Shown here: piece after piece, positions 1,610 through 23,459 of the stretch
Layout of the letters: each line of letters opens with the position of its first letter
Numbering within the stretch: position 1 is the first letter of the stretch
Virus record (IMG/VR): IMGVR_UViG_3300025093_000126
Coordinates: 1-23,472 of that record
Length of the DNA stretch: 23,472 bases
From: a virus
Strand: one strand, 5' to 3'
The notes under the pieces: model-generated
Seen by the model: the letters and a program-made list of their open reading frames with translations, nothing else
Databases searched by the model: none
What the model was told of the DNA's origin: nothing
Position numbers and translations under genes: made by a program

Positions 1610-1957
1610 ATGGCACAAATAGTAGAAGTAGAATTACCAGAAGAATATATAAACAAGAACAAGTATGAGATATACACACATCTTGAACAAGTTAGTATAT
1701 ATGCTCACAAGTTAAAAGAACAAATAGAAGATTTACAAGCTGAGGTAAAGTTAAGAGATTTACAATTACAAAAACAAAGAGCTGATATTTTAAAACTTAA
1801 ATCGTATGTAGGACATCAAAACATTAAGATAAAAGATTTAGAATTAGAAAGTGATAACTTTATTGAGGTAAGTGTAGAAGAAGAAAAAGAAACACCAAAC
1901 TTTATACCTGCAAGTTTACCATTTGAAGAAGTACAAGGAAAGATAAATAAGATATGA
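1610..1957 (+). CDS. Coiled-coil protein of unknown function
   Basis: 115 residues; family not recognised. Residues about 28-80 are rich in Leu, Lys, Glu and Gln with heptad-like spacing (EQIEDLQAEVKLRDLQLQKQ), predicting a coiled coil. The N-terminus is acidic and the C-terminal 35 residues contain a Glu run and a Pro-containing tail. There is no signal peptide or membrane segment. Its stop overlaps the next start in ATGA (1954-1957), so it is probably translationally coupled to the chaperone-like gene. A morphogenesis accessory role is possible from context only. Confidence 0.6.
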   Translation: MAQIVEVELPEEYINKNKYEIYTHLEQVSIYAHKLKEQIEDLQAEVKLRDLQLQKQRADILKLKSYVGHQNIKIKDLELESDNFIEVSVEEEKETPNFIPASLPFEEVQGKINKI

Positions 1958-2598
1958 AAAAAGAAGTAAAGATAGTAGTACCAACAAATTATTCAGCAGT
2001 AACACTTAAGAAGTATTTACGAATACAAAAAGATTTAAATGATTACTCTGATAATAAAGAAGCACAAGATGCATTCTTAGTATGGAACTTATGTGGTTTA
2101 ACACCTGAGATTACAAATGCATTAGATAATGAAACCTTACAAAGTATCGTAGTAGATTTACAAGGATTCTTATCAAAGACAGATTTTGAATTACAAAGAA
2201 TTGTAGATATTAATGGTGTTAAGTATGGATTTGAACCTAACTTAGCTAAGATGAGTTATGGTGCTTATTTAGATTTAACAAGATTTAAAGATATTGGTAT
2301 TGATGAGAACTGGTCTTCTATCATGTCTATATTATACAGACCTATAACACAGAAGAGAGGTGCCTTGTACGATATAGAACCTTATAAGGGTGAAGAACCA
2401 AAGAACAAAGATATGTGGTTAGATGTAAACATGGATGTGCATTTCGGATGTTTTTTTTTCTTCAATCGTATCTCAAATCTCTTGTTGAAAGATACCCTGA
2501 ACTCTTCGAAGGAAACCCTGGTGACGGAAGTGAATCATCCATTCATACACACAATTTTTCAAAAAAGTGGGGAAGCTATACATCAATTGTTTCGTTAG
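1954..2598 (+). CDS. Tail-assembly-chaperone-like protein, zero-frame product
   Basis: In frame this gives 214 residues. Residues 1-166 are well formed, with a YGFEPNLAKMSYGAYLDL segment (91-108) and an SIMSILYRPI segment (122-131), similar to proteins I associate with Bacteroidetes phage tail genes. At residues 167-170 the frame runs through a T9 tract (2451-2459) coding four Phe. The 44 residues after it look unstructured and unlike any family, whereas the -1 frame continues with conserved-looking sequence to 2741. The likely full protein is therefore a 262-residue -1 fusion, with this 214-residue form as alternative product, as for lambda G and GT. The chaperone role is inferred from the two-product pattern and similarity. 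A one-base homopolymer error in the assembly is the main alternative. Confidence 0.65.
   Translation: MKKEVKIVVPTNYSAVTLKKYLRIQKDLNDYSDNKEAQDAFLVWNLCGLTPEITNALDNETLQSIVVDLQGFLSKTDFELQRIVDINGVKYGFEPNLAKMSYGAYLDLTRFKDIGIDENWSSIMSILYRPITQKRGALYDIEPYKGEEPKNKDMWLDVNMDVHFGCFFFFNRISNLLLKDTLNSSKETLVTEVNHPFIHTIFQKSGEAIHQLFR
2451..2460 (+). other. T9C slippery site, candidate -1 frameshift
   Basis: Nine T followed by C. In the zero frame the codons are TGT TTT TTT TTC; the last seven bases fit the X XXY YYZ heptamer (T TTT TTC), so both tRNAs could re-pair after a -1 slip. A T9 run is also long enough for RNA polymerase to add a base. I see no convincing downstream stem-loop, which slightly favours transcriptional slippage. 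Confidence 0.6.
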
Positions 2599-2741
2599 CC
2601 AATGAAGATGTAACTAAGTTTGATGTGGTTACATCTATGGAACTTGAACAATGTTTGTTGTACCTATCATATAAAGCCGATAAAAACCAATTAGAAGGGA
2701 TAATTCATAGGCAAGCTATGGCTAAATACAAGCGAAAGTAA
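2451..2741 (+). CDS. -1 frame extension of the chaperone-like gene
   Basis: From the T run the -1 frame is open to a TAA at 2739-2741 and encodes about 96 residues: three Phe, then LQSYLKSLVERYPELFEG, later FSKKWGSYTSIVSLANEDV and a helical C-terminus ending AMAKYKRK. The WGSYTSI..LA..DV..FD..T segment resembles the C-terminal part of the family whose N-terminal part is encoded in frame from 1954. An ATG at 2415 lies in this frame, but starting there would read 12 residues of shadow sequence, so I treat the region as an extension reached by slippage rather than a separate gene. The fusion would be 262 residues. Confidence 0.6.
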   Translation, partial: FFFLQSYLKSLVERYPELFEGNPGDGSESSIHTHNFSKKWGSYTSIVSLANEDVTKFDVVTSMELEQCLLYLSYKADKNQLEGIIHRQAMAKYKRK

Positions 2742-3042: not shown

Positions 3043-5817
3043 ATGAGCTTAACTAAAGACCAATTAAGAGCATCGAATACTAATTCGTTTCCTAATAATA
3101 ATTCTCAAGCTATTACACCAGAGATTCTAAGGGATTTCAATACAGAAATGATTGATTCTCTTGTTGATGAAGTTTCTTTTAGTGGTTCAACAGAACCTAT
3201 GATTTCATCATCTCTTGCAACTGCGAGTTTTGATACTGTTAGTAGAGACATGACTTTCACAAAGAATGATGGAACTCAGTTCGATGTAAACATACCAGGT
3301 GGTGGTACTGGTACAGCAGATACAGGTTCATTACTTGTAACTGCATCTGTAGCTGATGCAACAATCACATATACAAAAGGTGATGGTTCTCAATTTACAA
3401 ATACTATAAATAATGTACAGTTTGCTACTCAATCAGAAGACCTTTATATTCATGTAAAGAATACAAGTGGTTCACCAATCAACAAAGGATTAGCAGTTCA
3501 TGCAACAGGTGTAACAGGAGAAAATATAAATGTAATCCTTGCAGATTCTTCTACACCTTCTTCTATGCCAGCCATTGGTATCTTAGAAGAAACATTAGCA
3601 GCAAATGCTGTAGGTAGAGCAATCGTTGCTGGTAGATTAAGAAATGTCGATACAAGTGGATTAGCTGCAGGAGAAAATGTATATGTAAATGGAGCTGGAG
3701 TACTAACAGTAAATGCACCAACAGGTTCAGATTTAGTACAATCTATTGGTGTTGCAGGTAAAATAAATGCAACTGAAGGTGAGATAATTATACAAGGAGC
3801 AGGTAGGGTAAATGCTTTACCAAACATTACAGAAGGATATGTATGGGTAGGAGGTGCTGAATCAGTACCAACAACATTAGCTACTTCATCTATTGCATTT
3901 GTAGATAGAGATAACACATTTACAGGCACACAATCATTTGATAACATTACAGTTAGTGGTACTGGTTCATTTGCTTATATAGAATCAGTAACAGGTTCAG
4001 CTAAGATTATCGGTGATGCCTTTATACAACTTAACACAGATACACCAGCTGTAAGATTTGGTGGTGTTAAAGTAATTGATTCTGGCTCAGGTGCTGGTAC
4101 AGGTTCTTTTGAATACGATTCTGAAACTAACCATTGGTTATACACAGCAGAAGATGGACATTCAGCAGGATTTATATCAGGTCCAACAGGCTCAGACAAA
4201 TCAAACATTATACATTTAACACAAGATACTATTCCTATTGCTAATGGTGATAATCATTTAGCAGATTCAGGAATAACAAAAATTAATGCTAACTCATATC
4301 AAGTAGCAGATAACTTAACTGCAAGAACATCGTTAAACACAAGTGGTTCTGCAGGTAAATCATATGTTAGTATATCATCAGCTGATGGTGGTAATGGTTC
4401 TAACTTTTTCCAAATGAACCAAACTACTTTAGGTGCACTTACACAGATACAACAAAATGATGGTGATGGTGGACAAAACATGGTACTTACCAAAGGTGGT
4501 GTAGGACAAATTACTCTTAACTTAGATGGTACATCAGGTCAAGCACATGGTGATTTTGCAAATGGAACTAATGGACAATCTGCATTTGTTGGTTCTCCAT
4601 TTATACAAATAGCAGACCAAGCAAGTGGTATAGATAGAAGAATTATATTAGCAGCTAAAGCATCAAACATAACAGGTGGAGGATTATCATCACCAAACCC
4701 AACATTAGCAATTGCAACAGGTGCAGGTTTACAAGAAGTATTCCAATTCCAAGATGCTAGTGTTTATACTGATGGTACAGTAGTTGCACATACACCTATG
4801 AACTTTAGTGGTTCTATTACAGGCTCAACTACAATTTATGATGAAACTATTATTAGTGGTACATTCTCAACAGAACCTTCACAATCAGTAACGATAGGAC
4901 AACAACCAGGTTTACCTTTAAACTCAGAAAGAGAATTTATTGGTTTACCAACTTATACTGATTTAAGTGGTATTGGTGGTAATACCTTTGATAATGAATC
5001 AGGTATCTACCTAAAAGGTAATGCAAGTTCTCAAGATGCTGGAGCTCTAAGAATTAAATACTCTGGTGGAGGTGGTTCATTCTTCTCTGTAACAAACTTT
5101 GGTCCAAATCAATTTGGTTCATTTTTACTACCAAGTGGTTCAGGAGCTACTGGATATACACAAGCATTTGGACAAGTACAATATCCTGGTGGTGTACCAC
5201 AAGGACAATATTTTATAGATGCTGATGCAGTACAAATAGGTACAAACAAATCAAATGCAAGTATCGAGTTTGGTAACCCTGCTTATTCAGACCCAATCAA
5301 GTTTAATACAGGTATAATTGTTGGTAATCCTGGTAGTGGATATAACCCTAACTTTAGAGCACAGATTGATGGTACAATAACTGCATCATTATCCGAAGGA
5401 TATGTGTGGGTAGGTGATAGTAATAATACATCAGTACTTGCAGCTACTTCATCATTCGGTGGAGGTGGAGGTGGTCCAGCAACTGTTACAACTGTAACAC
5501 CATCTGCTGGTACTGCAACTCTTGATTTATCATTAGGTACAAAATTCTATTTAGATATCCCAACAGGTACAACAACAGATATCGCAGTAAGTAACAGAGC
5601 TGATGGACAATCGTTCTCATTATTAGTATCACAATCATCTGCAGCTACAGGTTCACTATCGTTTACAGATAGTACATTTAAATTTGCAGGTGGTACTGAT
5701 TTCCAAGCAACTGATGCAGTATCTTCAGAAGATATCATATCATTTGAAATATATAATAACTCAGATGGTGCAGGTAATCAGTACATATATGCAGCATCTG
5801 TTAAAAACTTAGTATAA
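3043..5817 (+). CDS. Large tail fibre / virion structural protein
   Basis: 924 residues, very rich in Gly, Ser, Thr, Asn and Ala and poor in Cys, as in phage fibres. Residues 1-45 form a short N-terminal segment (SLTKDQLRASNTNSFPNNN) that may attach to the virion. Residues about 125-260 form a domain seen in marine phage fibres (LYIHVKNTSGSPINKGLAV ... GLAAGENVYVNGAG). A central beta-rich region follows. EGYVWVG occurs twice (264-270 and 785-791), bracketing the middle of the protein. Residues about 813-924 form a terminal module (LDLSLGTKFYLDIPTGT ... DIISFEIYNNSDG) that resembles the C-terminus of the fibre at 12717-14288. The gene ends one base before the propeller gene, suggesting joint expression and perhaps one appendage. 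Host binding is inferred. Confidence 0.7.
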   Translation: MSLTKDQLRASNTNSFPNNNSQAITPEILRDFNTEMIDSLVDEVSFSGSTEPMISSSLATASFDTVSRDMTFTKNDGTQFDVNIPGGGTGTADTGSLLVTASVADATITYTKGDGSQFTNTINNVQFATQSEDLYIHVKNTSGSPINKGLAVHATGVTGENINVILADSSTPSSMPAIGILEETLAANAVGRAIVAGRLRNVDTSGLAAGENVYVNGAGVLTVNAPTGSDLVQSIGVAGKINATEGEIIIQGAGRVNALPNITEGYVWVGGAESVPTTLATSSIAFVDRDNTFTGTQSFDNITVSGTGSFAYIESVTGSAKIIGDAFIQLNTDTPAVRFGGVKVIDSGSGAGTGSFEYDSETNHWLYTAEDGHSAGFISGPTGSDKSNIIHLTQDTIPIANGDNHLADSGITKINANSYQVADNLTARTSLNTSGSAGKSYVSISSADGGNGSNFFQMNQTTLGALTQIQQNDGDGGQNMVLTKGGVGQITLNLDGTSGQAHGDFANGTNGQSAFVGSPFIQIADQASGIDRRIILAAKASNITGGGLSSPNPTLAIATGAGLQEVFQFQDASVYTDGTVVAHTPMNFSGSITGSTTIYDETIISGTFSTEPSQSVTIGQQPGLPLNSEREFIGLPTYTDLSGIGGNTFDNESGIYLKGNASSQDAGALRIKYSGGGGSFFSVTNFGPNQFGSFLLPSGSGATGYTQAFGQVQYPGGVPQGQYFIDADAVQIGTNKSNASIEFGNPAYSDPIKFNTGIIVGNPGSGYNPNFRAQIDGTITASLSEGYVWVGDSNNTSVLAATSSFGGGGGGPATVTTVTPSAGTATLDLSLGTKFYLDIPTGTTTDIAVSNRADGQSFSLLVSQSSAATGSLSFTDSTFKFAGGTDFQATDAVSSEDIISFEIYNNSDGAGNQYIYAASVKNLV

Positions 5818-8889: not shown

Positions 8890-9432
8890 ATGAGTTGTTT
8901 AATTAACAAAGGAAGAAACGAAGTATGTAAAGATTCAGTAGGTGGACTGCAGGGTGTTTACTTCATTAACTTCGAATCAGGTTCTTTTACTAAGAACGCT
9001 GACGGTGAAATCACTTCATTGAGTGGTTCAACTGCTTATTTTTACGAACTCAAAGGTACTTCTACTTATACAGAAACTGTCAACTCTTCGCGAGAGAATG
9101 GTACAACATTCTTTTCTCAAGAGACTGTACTTAACTTGAAAAAGTTAACTAACAGTATGACAACTCAATTAAAATTGTTAGCTTATGGCAGACCTCAAAT
9201 TATTGTATGGACTAATAGTGGAGATGCATTATTAGCTGGAGAAGAACATGGAAATGATTTAACTGCAGGTACAATCCAAACTGGTGGAGCACTTGGTGAC
9301 CTTTATGGTTACTCTGCTACTTTCACAGGTGAAGAGAAATTACCAGCAGCTTTCTTAAGTGGTTCTACTACAACTAACCCATTCGCTGGTTTAGTAGCTG
9401 GTCCAACAATCGTATATGGTACGAATGACTAA
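8890..9432 (+). CDS. Probable major tail tube protein
   Basis: 180 residues of beta-rich sequence with features shared by abundant structural proteins of Bacteroidetes phages: CKDSVGGLQGVYFINF (13-28), SSRENGTTFFSQ (67-78), KLLAYGRPQIIVW (95-107) and GDLYGYSATFTGEEKLPAAF (136-155). The size and placement after the capsid gene fit a major tail protein; a head decoration protein is the alternative. The start is supported by a true Shine-Dalgarno match (AAGGAG, 8879-8884, five bases before ATG), rare in this window and consistent with strong translation. It is the last gene before the hairpin terminator. Confidence 0.55.
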   Translation: MSCLINKGRNEVCKDSVGGLQGVYFINFESGSFTKNADGEITSLSGSTAYFYELKGTSTYTETVNSSRENGTTFFSQETVLNLKKLTNSMTTQLKLLAYGRPQIIVWTNSGDALLAGEEHGNDLTAGTIQTGGALGDLYGYSATFTGEEKLPAAFLSGSTTTNPFAGLVAGPTIVYGTND

Positions 9433-9476: not shown

Positions 9477-9509
9477 AAAAAACCCTTCCTTGATTGGAGG
9501 GGTTTTTTT
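9477..9509 (+). terminator. Intrinsic terminator closing the scaffold-capsid-tube unit
   Basis: A 13-bp stem, AAAAAACCCTTCC (9477-9489) with GGAGGGGTTTTTT (9496-9508), contains one T-G wobble, has a TTGATT loop and ends in seven T (9503-9509). The A run on the 5' side means it could also act on the other strand. It lies 45 bases after the tube gene stop. Confidence 0.9.
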
Positions 9510-9567
9510 ATGCCTAATGGTGAGGTATGACTGAGTTATGTTTAGATAACTATAAGTTATTTCTTGT

Positions 9568-9993: not shown

Positions 9994-11265
9994 ATGAAAA
10001 AAGAACAGAACTTTAACATTGTAAACTTTACAAGACAGGATATTCCTATTGTAACCGAAGATATTAAAACAAGATATCAATGGGTGCCTGTTGGAATACT
10101 TGAACAAGATGATTACTTCGGTTTAATTACTGAGGCTTATAATACATCTACAACAAATGCAGCTGCAGTTGATGGTGTAGCTGATTTAGTATATGGTAAA
10201 GGTCTCTTTACAAAAGAAGAAGAGAAACAAATAAAATTAGATAAAATCATTCCACCAGAAGATTTAAGAAAAGTATCATTTGATTTAAAATTGTATGGTA
10301 ATGCTGCATTCCAAGTAATATGGAATGAATCACATACACAGATACTTAAGATGTATCATACACCTGTACAAAATCTTCGTGCTAAGAAAATACATCACTT
10401 AGGTAAAGTAGAAGGTTACTACTATTGTGTGGATTGGACTGATATGAGAAAACAGAAACAAAAGAAGTATTTACCTTCTTTTGGTTCATCTAATGAAGAA
10501 ATAGAAGTACTATATGTTAAAGAGTACGAACCTAACAGATATTACTATTCATTACCTGATTGGATAAGTGCATTACAATTCTCATTCTCAGAAGCTGAGT
10601 TATCTAACTTACACCTTAACAATATCGAGAATGGATTCTTGCCAGTTGCAATGGTTAACTTCAATAATGGAGTTCCTGCACCTGAAGAAAGACAAACAAT
10701 AGAAGCACTATTAGAATCTAAATTTACAGGTACAAGAAATGCTGGTAGATTTATGGTATCGTTTAATGATGATGCTGTAAACAAACCTACAATAGATACA
10801 CTTCCGATGGAGAACTTACATGAGAAATATCAGTATGTTGCTGAATATGCTCAAGATAGAATTCTCGTGGCTCATAGAATTGTTTCCCCATTACTATTTG
10901 GAATCAGAACTGCGAATAATGGATTCTCTTCTCAATCGGAAGAAATGAAAACTGCATATTCTATTATGCAAACTATGACAATATTCCCTTTCCAAAACCT
11001 TTTAATTAACTCTATATACCATGCATTTAGAGTTGGTGGTATCGATATATCAGAATTATATTTTGAACAACTTACACCTCTTGTAATCCTTTCTACAACT
11101 GCTGAAGAAACAGATAGTTCAGTAGAAGAAGTACAAGAAACAATCGATGATAACCTACAAGGTGGTGAAGGTGAACAAACTGAATCAGAAGAACAACAAT
11201 TAACAGAAGAGTATGAACCTCTAAGACCAAGTGATTTTGGTTTTGAAGCATACTATAAAGACTAA
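9994..11265 (+). CDS. Portal protein
   Basis: 423 residues; the dodecameric ring at the head vertex through which DNA is packaged. The wing/stem-like pattern of portals is present: an N-terminal region with NTSTTNAAAVDGVADLVYGK (about 49-68), DLKLYGNAAFQVIW (97-110), a central PDWISALQFSFSEAELS segment and the long helical part with AQDRILVAHRIVSPLLFGI (about 287-305), followed by NNGFSSQSEEMKTAY. The C-terminal 60 residues are Glu/Gln-rich and probably disordered (EETDSSVEEVQETIDDN). Its partner is the terminase at 434-1600. It starts one base after the previous gene and is followed 7 bases later by the connector. Here the portal gene lies downstream of the capsid gene, the reverse of the common order. 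Confidence 0.88.
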   Translation: MKKEQNFNIVNFTRQDIPIVTEDIKTRYQWVPVGILEQDDYFGLITEAYNTSTTNAAAVDGVADLVYGKGLFTKEEEKQIKLDKIIPPEDLRKVSFDLKLYGNAAFQVIWNESHTQILKMYHTPVQNLRAKKIHHLGKVEGYYYCVDWTDMRKQKQKKYLPSFGSSNEEIEVLYVKEYEPNRYYYSLPDWISALQFSFSEAELSNLHLNNIENGFLPVAMVNFNNGVPAPEERQTIEALLESKFTGTRNAGRFMVSFNDDAVNKPTIDTLPMENLHEKYQYVAEYAQDRILVAHRIVSPLLFGIRTANNGFSSQSEEMKTAYSIMQTMTIFPFQNLLINSIYHAFRVGGIDISELYFEQLTPLVILSTTAEETDSSVEEVQETIDDNLQGGEGEQTESEEQQLTEEYEPLRPSDFGFEAYYKD

Positions 11266-11272
11266 TAAGATT

Positions 11273-11785
11273 ATGGCATTTGGATTATTAATAACACGAA
11301 ACGATATTATCAAGAACACACCACTTGGTGGTGCAGTTGATGCGGATGCTCTTCTACCATTTATCAGAACAGCACAAGAAAAATACATTCTTAACTTGTT
11401 AGGTACTGTATTGTATAATAAATTACAAGATGATGTAGAATCACAAACTGCATTTACAGGATATTACCAAACACTTGTAGAAGAATATGTAAAACCTACA
11501 TTAATTTGGTATGGATGTGTAGAATATATTCCATTCAGTGCTATATCTTTTAAATCTGCAGGAGCAGTAAAACAAAACTCAGAAACAGGTGTATCACCAA
11601 GTAAAACAGAAGTAGATTATCTATTATCTAAAGCATTAAACAATGCAGATTACTACTCAACAAGATTACAAGATTGGTTGATAGCAAATAACACGAATGT
11701 ACCTGAATACAATGAATCAACAGGTGATTCTACAATGATTTATCCTGACCAATCAAATCAGTACTTTGGAGGGATAGAACTATAA
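11273..11785 (+). CDS. Head-tail connector, DUF6712 family
   Basis: 170 residues from the ATG at 11273. An earlier in-frame ATG (11231) would overlap the portal gene by 35 bases and add MILVLKHTIKTNKI, which does not fit the family, so the later start is chosen. Diagnostic segments are LLITRNDIIKNTPLGGAVD (5-23), ILNLLGTVLYNKL (39-51), YVKPTLIWYGCVEYIPFSA (72-90) and KTEVDYLLSKALNNADYY (111-128), typical of DUF6712 proteins next to Bacteroidetes phage portal genes. They are thought to be adaptor/head-completion proteins stacking under the portal. The gene lies between portal and neck genes, as expected for a connector. Confidence 0.8.
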   Translation: MAFGLLITRNDIIKNTPLGGAVDADALLPFIRTAQEKYILNLLGTVLYNKLQDDVESQTAFTGYYQTLVEEYVKPTLIWYGCVEYIPFSAISFKSAGAVKQNSETGVSPSKTEVDYLLSKALNNADYYSTRLQDWLIANNTNVPEYNESTGDSTMIYPDQSNQYFGGIEL

Positions 11786-11798
11786 AAAATATTATATT

Positions 11799-12698
11799 AT
11801 GAGTACACCATCACAAACACCTAATAGAGCTCAGATTACAAAGGATAGTGCAGTTAACTTTTCTTTGTATTACAATACTTTAAACTTCTTCAAAACAATT
11901 ATGAAGAATCATCCAAGTATTTCAAAAGTATCTCAAGGTGATATATTCAATTTTGATACAACAGAGTTTCCACAATATCCTATTGGTAATGTAATGATTA
12001 CTAATGCAAGATTTGAAGGAAGTACTACAAATTATCAAATACAATTAATCGTTGCTGATAAATCAGTAACACTTAATGATGGTGATTTACCTAATAGAAC
12101 AGATAATAAACAAGAAGTACCATTTTATGGTACAGATGATACAGTAGATATTCATGCTAACACATTGAGTATCTTAAATGATTTAACAGCTTATGTTCAG
12201 AAAGGGAACTATGGAATGGAGGTGAATGGGTTAATATCCTGTGAACCTTTTGCAGAGCGGTTTAACAATGGGCTGGTCGGATGGTCAGCCGATTTCGAAC
12301 TAACTGTACACAACGATAGAAACCGTTGTCTTTTTTTTTTGATGCCACCTAGCGGTAGCTATTGGAGAATTGAAGATTGTGAAACAGGAGATTTATTTAA
12401 TGCAGTATTAGCAACAACAGGTTCATTAGGACAAGTATTTGCTACAAAGTATGTACCAGCTCCAACAGGTTTCTTAGAATCGTATGAGAACATAAGATGT
12501 TTTGAAATAAAAGAAAAAATAGAAAATAGAGATGATTATCAATTTTATAACTTACCTGTACTTGAGATACCTTACGAGGATTTTGGAACTTGTGAGTTAT
12601 GTGAATTATGGACAAATCCTAAAGTTTGGGATACAACACCTGAACGATGGGATAACAACCAACCAGATGATGCTCTCAGAAAGTGGATATACACTTAA
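11799..12698 (+). CDS. Neck / tail-completion protein with in-frame C-terminal extension across a T10 run
   Basis: 299 residues in frame. Residues 1-177 look like a tail-completion/neck protein of flavobacterial phages: an N-terminal helix (YYNTLNFFKTIMKNHPSIS), a beta core with FPQYPIGNVMITNARFEG, a NILNDL-like helix and the final strand FELTVHNDRNRCL. Proteins of this type normally end close to that strand. Here a T10 run (codons 178-181) leads into a second region, residues 182-299, with YWRIEDCETGDLFNAVL, GQVFATKY, ENIRCFEI and CELCELW segments; I recognise only a resemblance to small Cys-containing domains attached to phage structural proteins. Slippage in either direction on the T run stops translation at once, giving about 180 or 184 residues, so a short and an extended neck protein may coexist. 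Confidence 0.72.
   Translation: MSTPSQTPNRAQITKDSAVNFSLYYNTLNFFKTIMKNHPSISKVSQGDIFNFDTTEFPQYPIGNVMITNARFEGSTTNYQIQLIVADKSVTLNDGDLPNRTDNKQEVPFYGTDDTVDIHANTLSILNDLTAYVQKGNYGMEVNGLISCEPFAERFNNGLVGWSADFELTVHNDRNRCLFFLMPPSGSYWRIEDCETGDLFNAVLATTGSLGQVFATKYVPAPTGFLESYENIRCFEIKEKIENRDDYQFYNLPVLEIPYEDFGTCELCELWTNPKVWDTTPERWDNNQPDDALRKWIYT
12330..12340 (+). other. CT10 slippery tract at a domain boundary
   Basis: C followed by ten T (12331-12340) then GATG. Zero frame reads CTT TTT TTT TTG ATG. With one extra T the frame becomes ...GAT GCC ACC TAG (stop at 12350-12352). With one T fewer it reads TTT TGA (stop at 12340-12342). A weak hairpin, GCCACC-TAGC-GGTAGC with one mismatch, follows at 12344-12359. 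It is the longest homopolymer in the window. Confidence 0.6.
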
Positions 12699-14294: not shown

Positions 14295-15935
14295 ATGAGG
14301 TTTACACCAGTAACACACTTTGCATCGGGTCAATTAGAACCTTGTGTAACTGCTATAGGTAGTGGCTCAGTTTCTTCTTCATTCCAAGTAGGAAATGTAA
14401 ATTGGAATCTGTATCTATTTACTTCTTCAGTACAACAAGGTGGTTCACCATCTTTATCACCTGAAACATACCAATTCGAAGTTTTAGATGGTTCTACAAC
14501 ACGAGCTATCGTAGGAGTAATCGGTGGTGGTGGTAGTGGTGGTAACAATGGATTAGCTAGTACCGATGGTGCTGGTGGAGGAGGTGGTGGTGTTAACATC
14601 GTATCAGATGTACAACTATTCGAAGATGCAACATATACTATTACTATTGGACATGGTGGAGATAGAAGTGAAGAAGCAACTTCAGGTATAAGACTAGGTG
14701 AGGATGGACAAGATTCTTCTTTCTCACAAGATGGTGGTAGTTTTATAATTACTGCTACAGGTGGTAGTGGTGGTTCAGGTTCTCTTGGAGGTGCTAGTGG
14801 TACTCCATTAGGTAACACAACAACATTTGGTAACTATGGTGGTAATGGTGCATTACAAGCTAGTTCAGGTTCTGAAGGTGGATATGGATTCTCTGTATAT
14901 TTTGGTGGAGGTTATTTACTAAGAGCAGGTGGTGGTGGAGCTAAAGAAGGTACTGCTGCAAGTGGACTAAGTGCAAAAGCATTTGGTGGAGGTAGTGGAC
15001 TTATTGGCCAAGGTATCAATGGAGCTGGTGGTGAACTAAGAGATGATGGTAGTGGTACAACTGTACAAGCCTTTGGTGGTGGAGGTGGAGGTGGAGAATA
15101 TTATATCCCTGCAAATAATAACTATGTAACTTCATTTGGTGGTGGTGGAGCTGTATTTATTTGTGTTCCTACAAACTTATGTACAGGTTCTTTATACTCA
15201 CCATCAGGAGAATATAGAAGTTTCTTACATAGTAACTATATATCAACAAAATTACAATCATTTGGTAAAGCACCATATGAGCAATTCGTAACTAATTTAG
15301 TTACAGGTGGACAAAACTTAGACCATTACTTTACTTATGATACTGGTTCTGATATTAAATCTGCAGCATTATATGCAAATTATACCTCATCTGCAAATGC
15401 AATCATTGCACCTCAATCAGGTATAGGTTCTGGTTCATTTGCGGGTGATTTAGATATAGGACCTAATATTGGTACAAATGATTATTATTCTTGTTCATTA
15501 GATAATGTTGATGTATCAAATGGATTTAGTATAGAATGGTATGGTAAACCACCTAATAGTACCGCATATATTGCATGGGCTCTAACAGATGGTATATATC
15601 CAACCGATAACCCTTCAGTAAAATTCTATAAAGATTATATAGATTTATATGATGATGTTGGTGCTAAAACTACAATCAATGCAACTGTATTCCCATCAGG
15701 TTTATCACATCATGTTGTTACTTATGGTGGTGGAACAATTAAGTGGTATATTAATGGTACACTTGATACAACAACTACTTATACAATCTCTAATAACTTA
15801 GATAATCCTGAGTTACAAATAGGTGAACCAAATACACCAGGTAATTCAGACCAGTATAACAGAGTATTTAGAGTTTATACAACAGATTTAAACTCAACAC
15901 AAGTAACACAAAATTATAACGCAGCAACATCGTAA
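14295..15935 (+). CDS. Glycine-rich adhesin with C-terminal lectin-like domain
   Basis: 546 residues. Residues about 68-290 contain a dense series of Gly runs (77-80, 94-99, 156-167, 195-206, 212-215, 231-240, 261-267, 282-285) separated by short beta strands, like the glycine-rich domains of phage tail proteins and the polyglycine-II sandwich of T-even-type gp38 adhesins. Residues about 395-546 resemble a LamG/concanavalin-like lectin domain: NGFSIEWYGKP (409-419), HHVVTYGGGTIKWYINGTL (472-490), PELQIGEPN and a final RVFRVYTTDLNSTQV. Such domains bind sugars. A receptor-binding role at the fibre tip is therefore likely. It follows the coiled-coil fibre directly and overlaps the next gene by one base (TAATG). 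Confidence 0.68.
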   Translation: MRFTPVTHFASGQLEPCVTAIGSGSVSSSFQVGNVNWNLYLFTSSVQQGGSPSLSPETYQFEVLDGSTTRAIVGVIGGGGSGGNNGLASTDGAGGGGGGVNIVSDVQLFEDATYTITIGHGGDRSEEATSGIRLGEDGQDSSFSQDGGSFIITATGGSGGSGSLGGASGTPLGNTTTFGNYGGNGALQASSGSEGGYGFSVYFGGGYLLRAGGGGAKEGTAASGLSAKAFGGGSGLIGQGINGAGGELRDDGSGTTVQAFGGGGGGGEYYIPANNNYVTSFGGGGAVFICVPTNLCTGSLYSPSGEYRSFLHSNYISTKLQSFGKAPYEQFVTNLVTGGQNLDHYFTYDTGSDIKSAALYANYTSSANAIIAPQSGIGSGSFAGDLDIGPNIGTNDYYSCSLDNVDVSNGFSIEWYGKPPNSTAYIAWALTDGIYPTDNPSVKFYKDYIDLYDDVGAKTTINATVFPSGLSHHVVTYGGGTIKWYINGTLDTTTTYTISNNLDNPELQIGEPNTPGNSDQYNRVFRVYTTDLNSTQVTQNYNAATS

Positions 15936-16354
15936 TGAAAGAACTAAGAGATTTAGCAAAAGTATATAAACAGAAAGCATTACAAGCTATCAATCCTGGT
16001 GTGCCTTATAAAAAGTATAAGAAGACAGGTAGTTCTAAAGCATATAAGACTGGTAATTTATATAGAAGTGTAGCACAAGAAAACAGAATCAATACCATGT
16101 TCACAGAAGATAAGAGAACAGGTAAGATGAAGTTTACATTTAAATTCAATGTACCTTCTTATGCAAAATATGTTCATTATGGTACAAAGAATATGGAAGC
16201 TAGACCTTTCGCACAGATAGCTGCAGAATCACCTGAGTTCAAGAAAACCAAAGATGAACTAATGAATACAAAATCAGCAGAACTACTCGAAGATATCTTT
16301 GGTGATTTAAATAAGATGTGGGCTAGTGGTGGTGATAACCTCTCAGTACAATAG
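15935..16354 (+). CDS. HK97 gp10-like neck/tail protein
   Basis: 139 residues, basic. The core motif YAKYVHYGTKNMEARPF (76-92) is the signature of the HK97-gp10-like family, whose members sit at the head-tail joint or terminate the tail tube. It is preceded by a TGNLYRSV helix segment (39-46), also typical. The start overlaps the adhesin stop by one base (TAATG), implying coupled translation, although the fibre and adhesin genes separate it from the other neck genes. A 49-base gap with a promoter-like motif follows. Confidence 0.75.
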   Translation: MKELRDLAKVYKQKALQAINPGVPYKKYKKTGSSKAYKTGNLYRSVAQENRINTMFTEDKRTGKMKFTFKFNVPSYAKYVHYGTKNMEARPFAQIAAESPEFKKTKDELMNTKSAELLEDIFGDLNKMWASGGDNLSVQ

Positions 16355-16403: not shown

Positions 16404-17573
16404 ATGGCTTTATCTATTATACAAAACCCAGCTGATGTATCTCTAGCACAATCACCTATTGCTTTTGCTGTATCTGAGTCAAATGCGAATGTGTTTACCT
16501 CATCTTCTATGCAGTATATTGCTGAATTGTACTTTTGGACAGGCTCTACAACAGATAGTGGTTCATCTGCTAACTACACATTACAAAAATATCCTAATAC
16601 ATCAAGAACAGGTATATTTGATGTTTCTCGTATTATTAACTCTGAGTTGAGTGATATAGTACAAGAAGTAAGTTCTTCTGTTAGATACTTTGCTATCGAT
16701 TCCTATGTACAATATCTAAGTGGTTCTACTTTCTTAACAGGCTCTCATGTTCGTTCTAACACATTTAAAGCTATTGATGGATACTCAGTATTCCAAGAAC
16801 CAATATCAGAGAGTATAAGTGATAAAACACCATTCTGGCCTATGATGACAGATGTAGATACTACACAATCTTATCAAGATGGTAACTATGGTAGATTATC
16901 TATATGGAAAGGTGCTGGTTCTGATTTAAGTACAACACAATTAATTTATTCAGGTAACTTAGATGATAACAACTTTGTTGTAACAACAGGTCAAACAAAT
17001 ACAACTAATATGGTTGGTACATTCCCTATATCACCAAACGAACCTGATTGGCCATTAGACCCTGGTACAAGTGAGTTTTCTATACAAGCTTTTGCAGGTG
17101 CAAGTGCAGTATCAAGTAAAATAAACTTCAAAGAAGTTTGTCAAACAAAATATGATAACATTAGAATCAAGTGGAAAAATAGATATGGACAGTTTGATTA
17201 CTTTAACTTTAATTTAGTATCTCGTCAAGCTATGAGTACAAGTAGACAAAGATATCAACCACAAATCGGTTCTTGGAATAACAGAACACTTACATATGAG
17301 AAATACGAGAACTCTGTACAAAATTACATTGTAGATTCAGACCAGACTTTATCAGTTAATACTGATTATGTTAAAGAATCATACAATGATATATTTAAAC
17401 AACTAATGGTATCAGATGAAATCTATTGGATAACAGAAGAAGGTAATCCTGAAAATGTATTACCATTAGCATTACAATCTACAAACTTTGCACAAAAAAC
17501 TGAGAAAGTAGATAAACTTATTCAATATTCTTTTGATTTCATTAGAGGACAAGGATATAAATTAATTATATAA
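16404..17573 (+). CDS. Distal tail / baseplate protein (Dit-like)
   Basis: 389 residues. The N-terminus (ALSIIQNPADVSLAQSPIAF) resembles structural proteins of flavobacterial phages placed before the baseplate hub. Around residues 254-271 RIKWKNRYGQFDYFNFNL matches the NRYGxFDxFxF motif of this group. The C-terminus ends in FDFIRGQGYKLII. The middle is Ser/Thr-rich and beta-predicted. By position, 15 bases before the hub gene and upstream of the tape measure, it is likely to link the tail tube to the tip. The exact family is not certain; a general baseplate protein is the safe reading. Confidence 0.55.
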   Translation: MALSIIQNPADVSLAQSPIAFAVSESNANVFTSSSMQYIAELYFWTGSTTDSGSSANYTLQKYPNTSRTGIFDVSRIINSELSDIVQEVSSSVRYFAIDSYVQYLSGSTFLTGSHVRSNTFKAIDGYSVFQEPISESISDKTPFWPMMTDVDTTQSYQDGNYGRLSIWKGAGSDLSTTQLIYSGNLDDNNFVVTTGQTNTTNMVGTFPISPNEPDWPLDPGTSEFSIQAFAGASAVSSKINFKEVCQTKYDNIRIKWKNRYGQFDYFNFNLVSRQAMSTSRQRYQPQIGSWNNRTLTYEKYENSVQNYIVDSDQTLSVNTDYVKESYNDIFKQLMVSDEIYWITEEGNPENVLPLALQSTNFAQKTEKVDKLIQYSFDFIRGQGYKLII

Positions 17574-22102: not shown

Positions 22103-22120
22103 TTGTTAAATTAATATGAA
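22103..22120 (+). promoter_or_regulatory. Degenerate copy of the intergenic motif (TTGTTAAATT..TATGA)
   Basis: TTGTTAAATT at 22103-22112 followed by AATATGA, the ATG at 22116 lying in the 3' part as in the copy at 20235. It differs from the other copies at one core position. The preceding 22083-22102 are A/T-rich with no other signal. Confidence 0.25.
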
Positions 22121-23459
22121 ACTATTTGAATTAACCATAGATGATGTACTGATGGATGAGGTGTTTGCTATCTCATTAGTAGAAGAACCTGCAATCGAAA
22201 GTAACTTCATGTGGTTCGATAAAGAAAAAGTACTATTTGAAAGAGTAGATAAAGAAAAAAGATTAGTAGTAGGTCCTGTTCTTATACCTAATAAAAAGAT
22301 TTTTAGAGTTGATGGTGAAGGTAATGGATATGAAGTATTCTTTAAACCTGAAACAGTTGAGAAACTAGCACAAGGATATTTGAAAAAAGGATATCAATCT
22401 AAATCTACATTAGAACACAAAGAAAAAGTAGATGGTGTACATCTTGTAGAATCATGGATAAAAACAAATAAGTTAGATAAATCTAATTCTTATGGTTTGA
22501 ATGTACCTGTTGGAACATGGATGGGTATGTTTAAAATCGATAACGATGAAATTTGGGAAGATTATGTGAAGAATGGTGAAGTTAAAGGCTTTTCGATAGA
22601 AGGTCTGTTCACTCACGATTTAGTAAAAGCATCATCGGTATCATTAGATGGTATATTAGAACAAGAAGCAACTTACCTATTAAATCAAATAAGAGCAATC
22701 ATAAAGAAAGATAAAAGATACTCAGATGGTAAAAGAGTGGAGATGGAATCATATAATGATTATCCACAAGGAGTAAAGAATAACGCTAAAAGAGGTATTG
22801 AACTAAATAAAAAGATAAACAACAGATGTGCAACACCTGTTGGCAAAATAAGAGCACAACAGCTTGCACAAGGTAAACCCATCAGTATAGAGACAATCAA
22901 GCGCATGTACTCTTATCTGTCAAGAGCCGAAGCTCAATATAGAAAGAATGAAGGTGATAATGAAGCATGTTCAGTTGTCTCTTACTTATTATGGGGTGGT
23001 TTAGCTGGTTTAGGTTGGAGTAGAAATAAATTAAGAGAACAAGGTTTATTAGAAGCAGAAGTACAACCTCAAATAGATTCTACATATCCTGGTGAATCTA
23101 ATACTATGGTAACAGGTTCAATAGATATATCAGAAGAGATTGCTAAGGTACAAGAACAAATAGATGCAAAGGCAGTTGCAACTTATGATGGTTTACCTCT
23201 TTACGAAACTAAAGAAGAAGCAGAAAAAGTAGCAATAGAAATCGGATGTGAAGGTTCTCACATACACAATATAAGTGGTAAAGATTTATATATGCCATGT
23301 GCAAAACATAGTGATACAACAGATAAATTATTGGGTGGTTCGATTGAGGATAGGAGAGAGGAATTAATTACACCAAATCCATGTCAGAGTGGTTACATAG
23401 CCATTGGTACAAAGATTAAAGATGGAAGAGAAGTACCTAATTGTGTTCCCGAGAAGTAA
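22116..23459 (+). CDS. Prohead protease (XkdF-like) fused to three C-terminal modules
   Basis: 447 residues. Residues 1-165 are an XkdF-like prohead protease: VDE-type start (DDVLMDEVFAISLVEEPAIE, 9-28), EKRLVVGPVLIP (47-58), H101 in TLEHKE, GTWMGMFKIDNDEIW (133-147) and S160 in GFSIEG. H101 and S160 are the likely catalytic residues. Residues 212-308 form a second domain (YNDYPQGVKNNAKRGIELN; CATPVGKIRAQQLAQG; IKRMYSYLSRAEAQY; SYLLWGGLAGLGWSRNKL) known fused to phage proteases, function unknown. Residues 356-398 (GLPLYETKEEAE; GCEGSHIHNISGKDLYMPC) have a C-x3-HxH-x10-C-x2-H pattern that could bind metal. The end, GREVPNCVP (437-445), is a tail found on such proteins. It would cut the scaffold and head proteins during maturation, yet lies 13 kb after the capsid gene. 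Confidence 0.78.
   Translation: MKLFELTIDDVLMDEVFAISLVEEPAIESNFMWFDKEKVLFERVDKEKRLVVGPVLIPNKKIFRVDGEGNGYEVFFKPETVEKLAQGYLKKGYQSKSTLEHKEKVDGVHLVESWIKTNKLDKSNSYGLNVPVGTWMGMFKIDNDEIWEDYVKNGEVKGFSIEGLFTHDLVKASSVSLDGILEQEATYLLNQIRAIIKKDKRYSDGKRVEMESYNDYPQGVKNNAKRGIELNKKINNRCATPVGKIRAQQLAQGKPISIETIKRMYSYLSRAEAQYRKNEGDNEACSVVSYLLWGGLAGLGWSRNKLREQGLLEAEVQPQIDSTYPGESNTMVTGSIDISEEIAKVQEQIDAKAVATYDGLPLYETKEEAEKVAIEIGCEGSHIHNISGKDLYMPCAKHSDTTDKLLGGSIEDRREELITPNPCQSGYIAIGTKIKDGREVPNCVPEK

Follow-up and report, generated by a model that had tools for sequence, protein, structure and literature searches.

Ten consecutive thymidines between the two domains of a phage tail terminator gene: a candidate slippage element for short and long products

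Why a phage gene should carry ten consecutive thymidines exactly at the boundary between two protein domains is the question raised by the locus discussed here. The window, i.e., the whole stretch of DNA that was analysed, comprises 23,472 bases and is a linear virus record from IMG/VR (IMGVR_UViG_3300025093_000126). The original prediction, made from this sequence alone, was that the T10 run at a domain boundary yields short and extended forms of one protein. It placed the run, the open reading frame and the stops TGA and TAG in the two other frames at the positions given in Table 1, all of which were confirmed, and it correctly counted 118 further residues in the zero frame after Leu181. The answer proposed below is a probable one and is drawn from comparisons among related sequences: the run and an RNA hairpin directly upstream of it would form a selected recoding element, through which stem-loop-assisted transcriptional slippage would produce short and long terminators from one gene.

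Table 1. Positions of the features discussed, all numbered along the window.
Feature	Position	Strand	Basis or remarks
Predicted tail terminator gene, long zero-frame form	11799..12698	+	299 aa, ATG start; homologues in >200 IMG/VR contigs
Predicted tail terminator domain, residues 1-180	11799..12338	+	Foldseek; +1 short form would end here
C-terminal extension, residues 181-299	12339..12695	+	Small beta domain, four invariant Cys; model pLDDT 79
RNA hairpin ACAACG-AUAGAAAC-CGUUGU	12310..12329	+	Directly upstream of T10; fold and synonymous-shuffle statistics
Putative T10 slippage run, codons CTT TTT TTT TTG, Leu178-Leu181	12331..12340	+	Sequence, conservation
TGA, +1 frame stop, putative 180-aa short form	12340..12342	+	Immediate +1 stop in 156/157 distinct T10 sites
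TAG, -1 frame stop, putative 184-aa short form	12350..12352	+	-1 stop within 22 nt in 157/157 sites
DUF6712 protein	11231..11785	+	Syntenic upstream neighbour, head-tail connector position; PF20459 E = 2.4e-20
Tail-assembly-chaperone-like gene	1954..2598	+	Zero-frame product 214 aa; T9 run at 2451-2459
-1 frame continuation of the chaperone-like gene	2415..2741	+	Conserved 85-93 residue C-terminus via -1 shift at T9

The terminator domain and its extension

The gene comes after the portal and DUF6712 genes. The AlphaFold model of the 299-residue long form is of modest confidence (pLDDT 51). With few exceptions, the best Foldseek matches of its first ~180 residues in the PDB are proteins of the tail terminator, collar or neck, including those of Mu, R4C, lambda (gpU) and an R-type pyocin, with E-values from 6e-5 to 1e-3. 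Because of these matches and the position after the portal and DUF6712 genes, this part models as a gpU-like tail terminator, its ring-forming and tail-capping role being inferred. The matched chains have 120-180 residues and, unlike the window protein, no C-terminal extension. The original prediction had described the product as a tail-completion or neck protein. This assignment does not hold, as the gene models as a gpU/Mu-type terminator, while the tail-completion/Neck1 family phrog_5 corresponds to the gene at 15935-16354.

Pfam and PHROGs gave no convincing match to either half of the 299-residue protein, and Rfam, Pfam and PHROGs returned nothing decisive for the gene or the T10 site. 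No relative of the terminator gene was found by tblastn against cultured phages or in two scans of bacterial and archaeal genome contigs. Gp09 of Nonlabens phage P12024L was considered and set aside, being a positional neighbour but no clear homologue. The best cultured matches of the neighbouring terminase, portal and DUF6712 genes are found in Flavobacterium and Nonlabens phages. The family carrying the T10 gene is uncultured and probably infects marine and freshwater Bacteroidota. Elsewhere in the window, positions 22116-23459 encode an XkdF-like serine protease (Peptidase_S78_2) joined to a DUF3721 domain.

A structure search of the PDB with the extension domain gave no match. Its matches in BFVD, A0A6J5SNN9 and A0A6J7X4Z4, are predicted proteins of uncultured phages with 288 and 868 residues. 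In seven loci (L310, L316, L354, L357, L391, L397 and L400) the domain after the junction is longer, with 144-924 residues, and fibre-like. Past the same hairpin-T10 joint, these proteins go on with linkers rich in Thr, stretches rich in Gly and, once, an Lcl_C-like domain. The two genes that follow the terminator gene in the window are also fibre-like, one of them with Gly-rich and Laminin_G_3 domains. Four of the fibre-fused relatives have a homologue of the window gene at 16404 in the next position instead, and fibre genes therefore appear to have been absorbed into the terminator gene. An adhesin or attachment role of the long form is likely, by inference. Another tail-region ORF, of 426 residues, also contains a stretch that weakly matches the extension domain (E 4.5e-5; L121 and L122, ORF at 5072).

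Conservation at the T10 run and at a second T run

The T10 run is the longest homopolymer in the window. Only two T-runs exceed seven, this one and the T9 in the chaperone-like gene, and 0.08 runs of ten or more are expected under a first-order model. A chance origin is excluded because the run is conserved among homologous sites. Protein-level and DNA-pattern scans of IMG/VR viral contigs recovered a few hundred loci carrying the gene. There are 163 distinct homologous sites of 135 nt. T10 is present in 157 of these, T9 in three and T11 in one, and two have no run. The original prediction had called for such a comparison of run lengths among relatives. It had also named an assembly error in the run as grounds for refutation, which T10 at 157 distinct sites excludes. 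A search of the whole of IMG/VR with the pattern CGTTGYC-T(n)-R returned at least 120 stretches with T10, 23 with T9 and one with T11; the single T11 and only three of the T9 matches lie in the terminator gene. IMG/VR contigs are assemblies, and in the contigs that are off by one (T9 in L026, L060 and L431, T11 in L022) real variants cannot be distinguished from assembly errors.

Codon usage was analysed in 64 non-redundant full-length genes, 62 of which bear the run. The sequences are phylogenetically related, and counts of conservation are not independent trials. All 62 run-bearing genes encode the run as CTT TTT TTT TTR without a single interruption, and Leu181 is read from TTG or TTA, never from CTN. 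On the tree, the codon of Leu178 changes twice, that of Phe179 once and that of Phe180 twice, all within run-less lineages, compared with 6-32 changes in other invariant Leu columns and 4-19 in other invariant Phe columns. Even with Ile at residue 178, as in L062 and L063, the T10 run persists. Two criteria of programmed slippage are met in this way, namely an uninterrupted A/T run of about nine or more and its conservation beyond what the protein requires.

The hairpin ends one base before the run in the window and 1-2 nt before it across relatives. Its stem, CAAYG/CGTTG, is longer in many of them. The 5-bp core is kept in 59 of the 62 run-bearing genes, where synonymous shuffles give 1.7 ± 1.3, which fulfils the criterion of stem-loop-mediated slippage that a hairpin lie directly upstream of the run. 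The mean folding energy is -6.0 kcal/mol (-0.7 kcal/mol in the shuffles). Arg176 is encoded by CGT in 59 of 64 genes, compared with 11 of 409 Arg codons (2.7%) elsewhere in the same genes. Judged by these statistics, the hairpin before T10 is under selection. Compensatory changes are few, and support from covariation is weak because nearly fixed residues dictate most of the pairs; the case for the hairpin rests on synonymous constraint, not on covariation. Nor is the hairpin strictly needed, since three of the 62 genes have a broken core and retain T10, and since no strong hairpin is conserved at the second T run. In one contig (L045, around 4500) the Arg176 codon is TGA, giving an even shorter terminator; this may be an error. 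Another hairpin, followed by T7, lies at 9483-9509 in the window, between genes ending at 9432 and starting at 9564, and resembles an ordinary intrinsic terminator.

Downstream of the run, both non-zero frames stop within 22 nt at all 157 distinct T10 sites. In the codon set both are closed within 17 nt in 62 of 62 genes, a level of closure matched at no other of 243 codon positions (median 0.21), and the criterion of near stops in both other frames is met. The immediate +1 stops are largely a consequence of the amino acid sequence, with 39.3 of 41 expected in synonymous shuffles, and are for this reason not counted as independent evidence. The -1 stop follows at a mean distance of 8.1 nt, compared with 22.5 ± 2.3 nt in the shuffles. 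Across the 157 sites it is TAA, TGA or TAG at one of several places, and it persists while residue 183 varies among N, D, K, S and E. Pro184 is encoded by CCT in 21 of the 22 genes in which the -1 stop depends on it, and in 13 of the 39 in which an earlier -1 stop is present. Similarly, Ser185 is AGY in 10 of 11 cases where the stop needs AGY and in 4 of 38 otherwise. On this codon evidence the -1 stop is clearly the selected one.

T9 or T10 runs occur in all relative genomes scanned, and most have a second run besides the terminator site. In the regions that were fetched and in L098, this second run lies ~10 kb upstream in the tail-chaperone-like gene. The annotation of that gene rests on Phage_TAC_7 (E = 1.2e-4; 22.5 bits, below the curated cut-off of 25) and phrog_3140 (E = 0.0028). 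At all 22 distinct sites, with T9 or T10, nothing but a -1 shift leads into its conserved C-terminus, and the chaperone criterion of a frameshift-extended product with a conserved C-terminus is met. A conserved strong hairpin was looked for at this run and not found. Both the hairpin at the terminator site and the second T run had been missed by the original prediction.

Short and long forms in relatives, and the rival mechanisms

The outgroup L442 shares its record with L098 and has only one terminator, of 178 residues, ending in ...DRCLFNLSGKINLC, without extension, run, hairpin or CGT. In 26 loci a separate short gene of ~174 aa, without the run, lies directly upstream of the long gene, its product ending in NRCLFELYPN, NRCLFELM or a close variant. 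The end of the terminator domain in the window protein is equivalent to the ends of both the short paralogue and the short-only outgroup protein. The short copies take two positions on the tree, which suggests two duplications of the terminator gene; support values were not assessed. Tandem pairs are found, e.g., in L176 (2314-3709), L187 (2475-3870), L186 and L190. In 25 relative records and the window, one terminator gene was found in each, except in two records with a tandem pair.

Joint loss of the run and the hairpin is seen in two separate lineages, one comprising L142/L144/L176/L177 and the other L129/L187, each within the duplicate-bearing group, in which a separate upstream gene encodes the short form. 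These lineages still encode the long form, with the residues LFFL read from TTA TTT TTC TTA or TTG TTC TTC TTA. A long form without a homopolymer had been named in advance as refuting the idea of two forms. Such genes do exist in these two lineages, but they do not refute it; they fit the slippage idea because both lineages carry a separate short gene. Loss of the run is never seen in single-copy lineages, where its only variants are one T11 and three T9 contigs. The retention of T10 in most duplicate-bearing lineages counts against the slippage reading. Overall, the proposal that T10 at the domain boundary gives short and extended forms is supported comparatively, without expression data, by the codon constraint on the run, the closed frames, the relatives with short-only or separate short genes, and the fact that run and hairpin have disappeared, together, only from lineages with a short gene.

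The same short form could also arise on the ribosome, by -1 (or +1) frameshifting on U UUU UUU or U UUU UUG followed by an immediate stop, as in E. coli dnaX. This explanation is unlikely, though the strongest of the rivals. Both sequences are perfect slippery heptamers in frame, which satisfies one criterion for such a shift, the clearly selected stop is the -1 stop, and the second site needs a -1 shift, the usual ribosomal direction for tail-chaperone-like genes. However, a heptamer needs only seven U's, whereas the run retains all ten, and CTN is never used for Leu181. The hairpin lies upstream, 1-2 nt from the run, and not 5-9 nt downstream of it. The criterion of a conserved 3' stimulator is not met, with 20-27 third-position changes at residues 184-186. 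Transcriptional slippage is preferred over ribosomal slippage because ten T's are kept, the hairpin is directly upstream and nothing downstream is conserved.

It is improbable that the element is simply an intrinsic terminator or attenuator inside the gene, at which some transcripts end at the U-tract and expression of the downstream tail genes is lowered. A hairpin followed by U10 has the layout of a terminator, but the stems are weak (about -2 to -8 kcal/mol), the truncated mRNAs would lack a stop codon, and a terminator tolerates interruptions of its U-tract, of which there are none in 62 genes. It would also leave unexplained the conservation of the out-of-frame stops, the exact domain boundary and the separate short genes. 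A terminator role in addition to slippage is possible.

A phase-variable contingency locus, with T10 as the long-on and T9 or T11 as the long-off state of the genome and replication slippage as the switch, is very improbable. The natural T9 and T11 contigs named above would be its off states, yet these may be assembly errors, and T10 at 157 of 161 run-bearing sites is far from a mixed on/off spectrum. In addition, the hairpin and the paired stops would be superfluous. Finally, the idea that a homopolymer sequencing error has fused two neighbouring genes, or that LFFL is plainly conserved as protein, can hardly be maintained: T9 in the window alone would give a TGATG stop-start overlap, but relatives without an ATG there (Leu-Ile, Leu-Ser, Leu-Thr or Leu-Val) keep T10 in frame, for which reason the overlapping-gene model was dropped, and synonymous sites are held fixed in the run and in the hairpin and far less so in neighbouring codons.

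In the preferred mechanism, stem-loop-assisted transcriptional slippage, the nascent hairpin directly behind the RNA polymerase would help the RNA-DNA hybrid to realign on the run, so that some transcripts would end up with nine, eleven or another number of U's. Faithful copies would be translated into the 299-residue long form, i.e., the terminator with its extra domain. Copies off by a number that is not a multiple of three would, in either direction, reach a stop within 22 nt and yield a plain terminator of ~180 residues. One gene could thus supply two kinds of subunit for the terminator ring, one plain and one with an accessory, probably adhesin-like, domain. The sequence, its conservation, the positions of the stops and the patterns seen in duplicate-bearing relatives and the outgroup are direct observations. 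In the absence of RNA or protein data, it is only inferred that the run slips, that it does so during transcription, that virions contain both products and that the extra domain resembles an adhesin. The ratio of short to long form is likewise inferred and could be anything, also with respect to the few decorated copies among short ones that the original prediction envisaged.

A broader reading, for which the chances appear even, joins both T runs. Poly-T slippage may be a standard means of recoding throughout this lineage, at two sites per genome. The hairpin-T10 joint may be a fixed connector for interchangeable adhesin or fibre modules, with slippage setting how many terminator subunits carry them, and lineages with a separate short gene could then lose the joint.

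Implications and comparison with known systems

If the mechanism is correct, polymerase slippage would determine the composition of a natural virion component, the terminator, and a conserved terminator-like hairpin in a coding region would gain a second use. The series of short-only outgroup, slippage-joined gene, duplicated gene and loss of slippage after duplication makes the reasons why phages recode structural proteins directly testable. T-run "frameshift errors" in genomes of uncultured phages can be real signals, given two sites conserved across a large lineage. No earlier report of the T10 site was found in a literature search of incomplete coverage.

Slippage of RNA polymerase at A9 or T9 runs is established (PMC5009743). 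The logic and the layout are those of dnaX of Thermus thermophilus (tau/gamma): a single ORF likewise encodes the long product, and the short one arises by slippage on a homopolymer after which stops soon close the other two frames (PMC5009743). The claim that a long form in frame and a short form by slippage reverses the usual logic can therefore not be upheld. Unlike the window gene, dnaX encodes a polymerase subunit, not a virion protein.

In IS1447, an A9 run beside a stem-loop slips at ~16% in each direction (PMC6211511). As far as the accessible parts of the sources go, IS1447 and the Roseiflexus IS630 resemble the T10 site in having a stem-loop beside the run and slippage in both directions, and they differ in run type, which is T5C5 in IS630 and A9 in IS1447. 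The outcome is also opposite: slippage in IS1447 leads to the full-length transposase, while in the window gene it would lead to the short form.

Mixed rings are known from phage SPP1, in which plain and domain-extended copies of the tail tube protein, gp17.1 and gp17.1*, occur in the virion at 3:1 and the extra domain of gp17.1* is thought to bind cell surfaces (PMC6316719). As proposed for the window gene, both kinds of a tail ring subunit come from a single gene. The long form of SPP1 depends on a ribosomal +1 shift at CCCUAA and belongs to the tail tube, whereas in the window gene the default frame encodes the long form and the protein is a predicted tail terminator. The neck passage structure of lactococcal 936 phages consists of a conserved neck part of ~180 residues followed by swappable binding modules, and TpeX of these phages is the product of a programmed frameshift, according to the portion of the report that was available (PMC6669499). 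That portion gives no indication that the neck passage protein is recoded, and the protein is not a gpU-like terminator, in which it differs from the window gene. To the extent that the 936 report could be consulted, it and SPP1 demonstrate that mixed plain and decorated rings, as well as neck adhesins, exist in phages.
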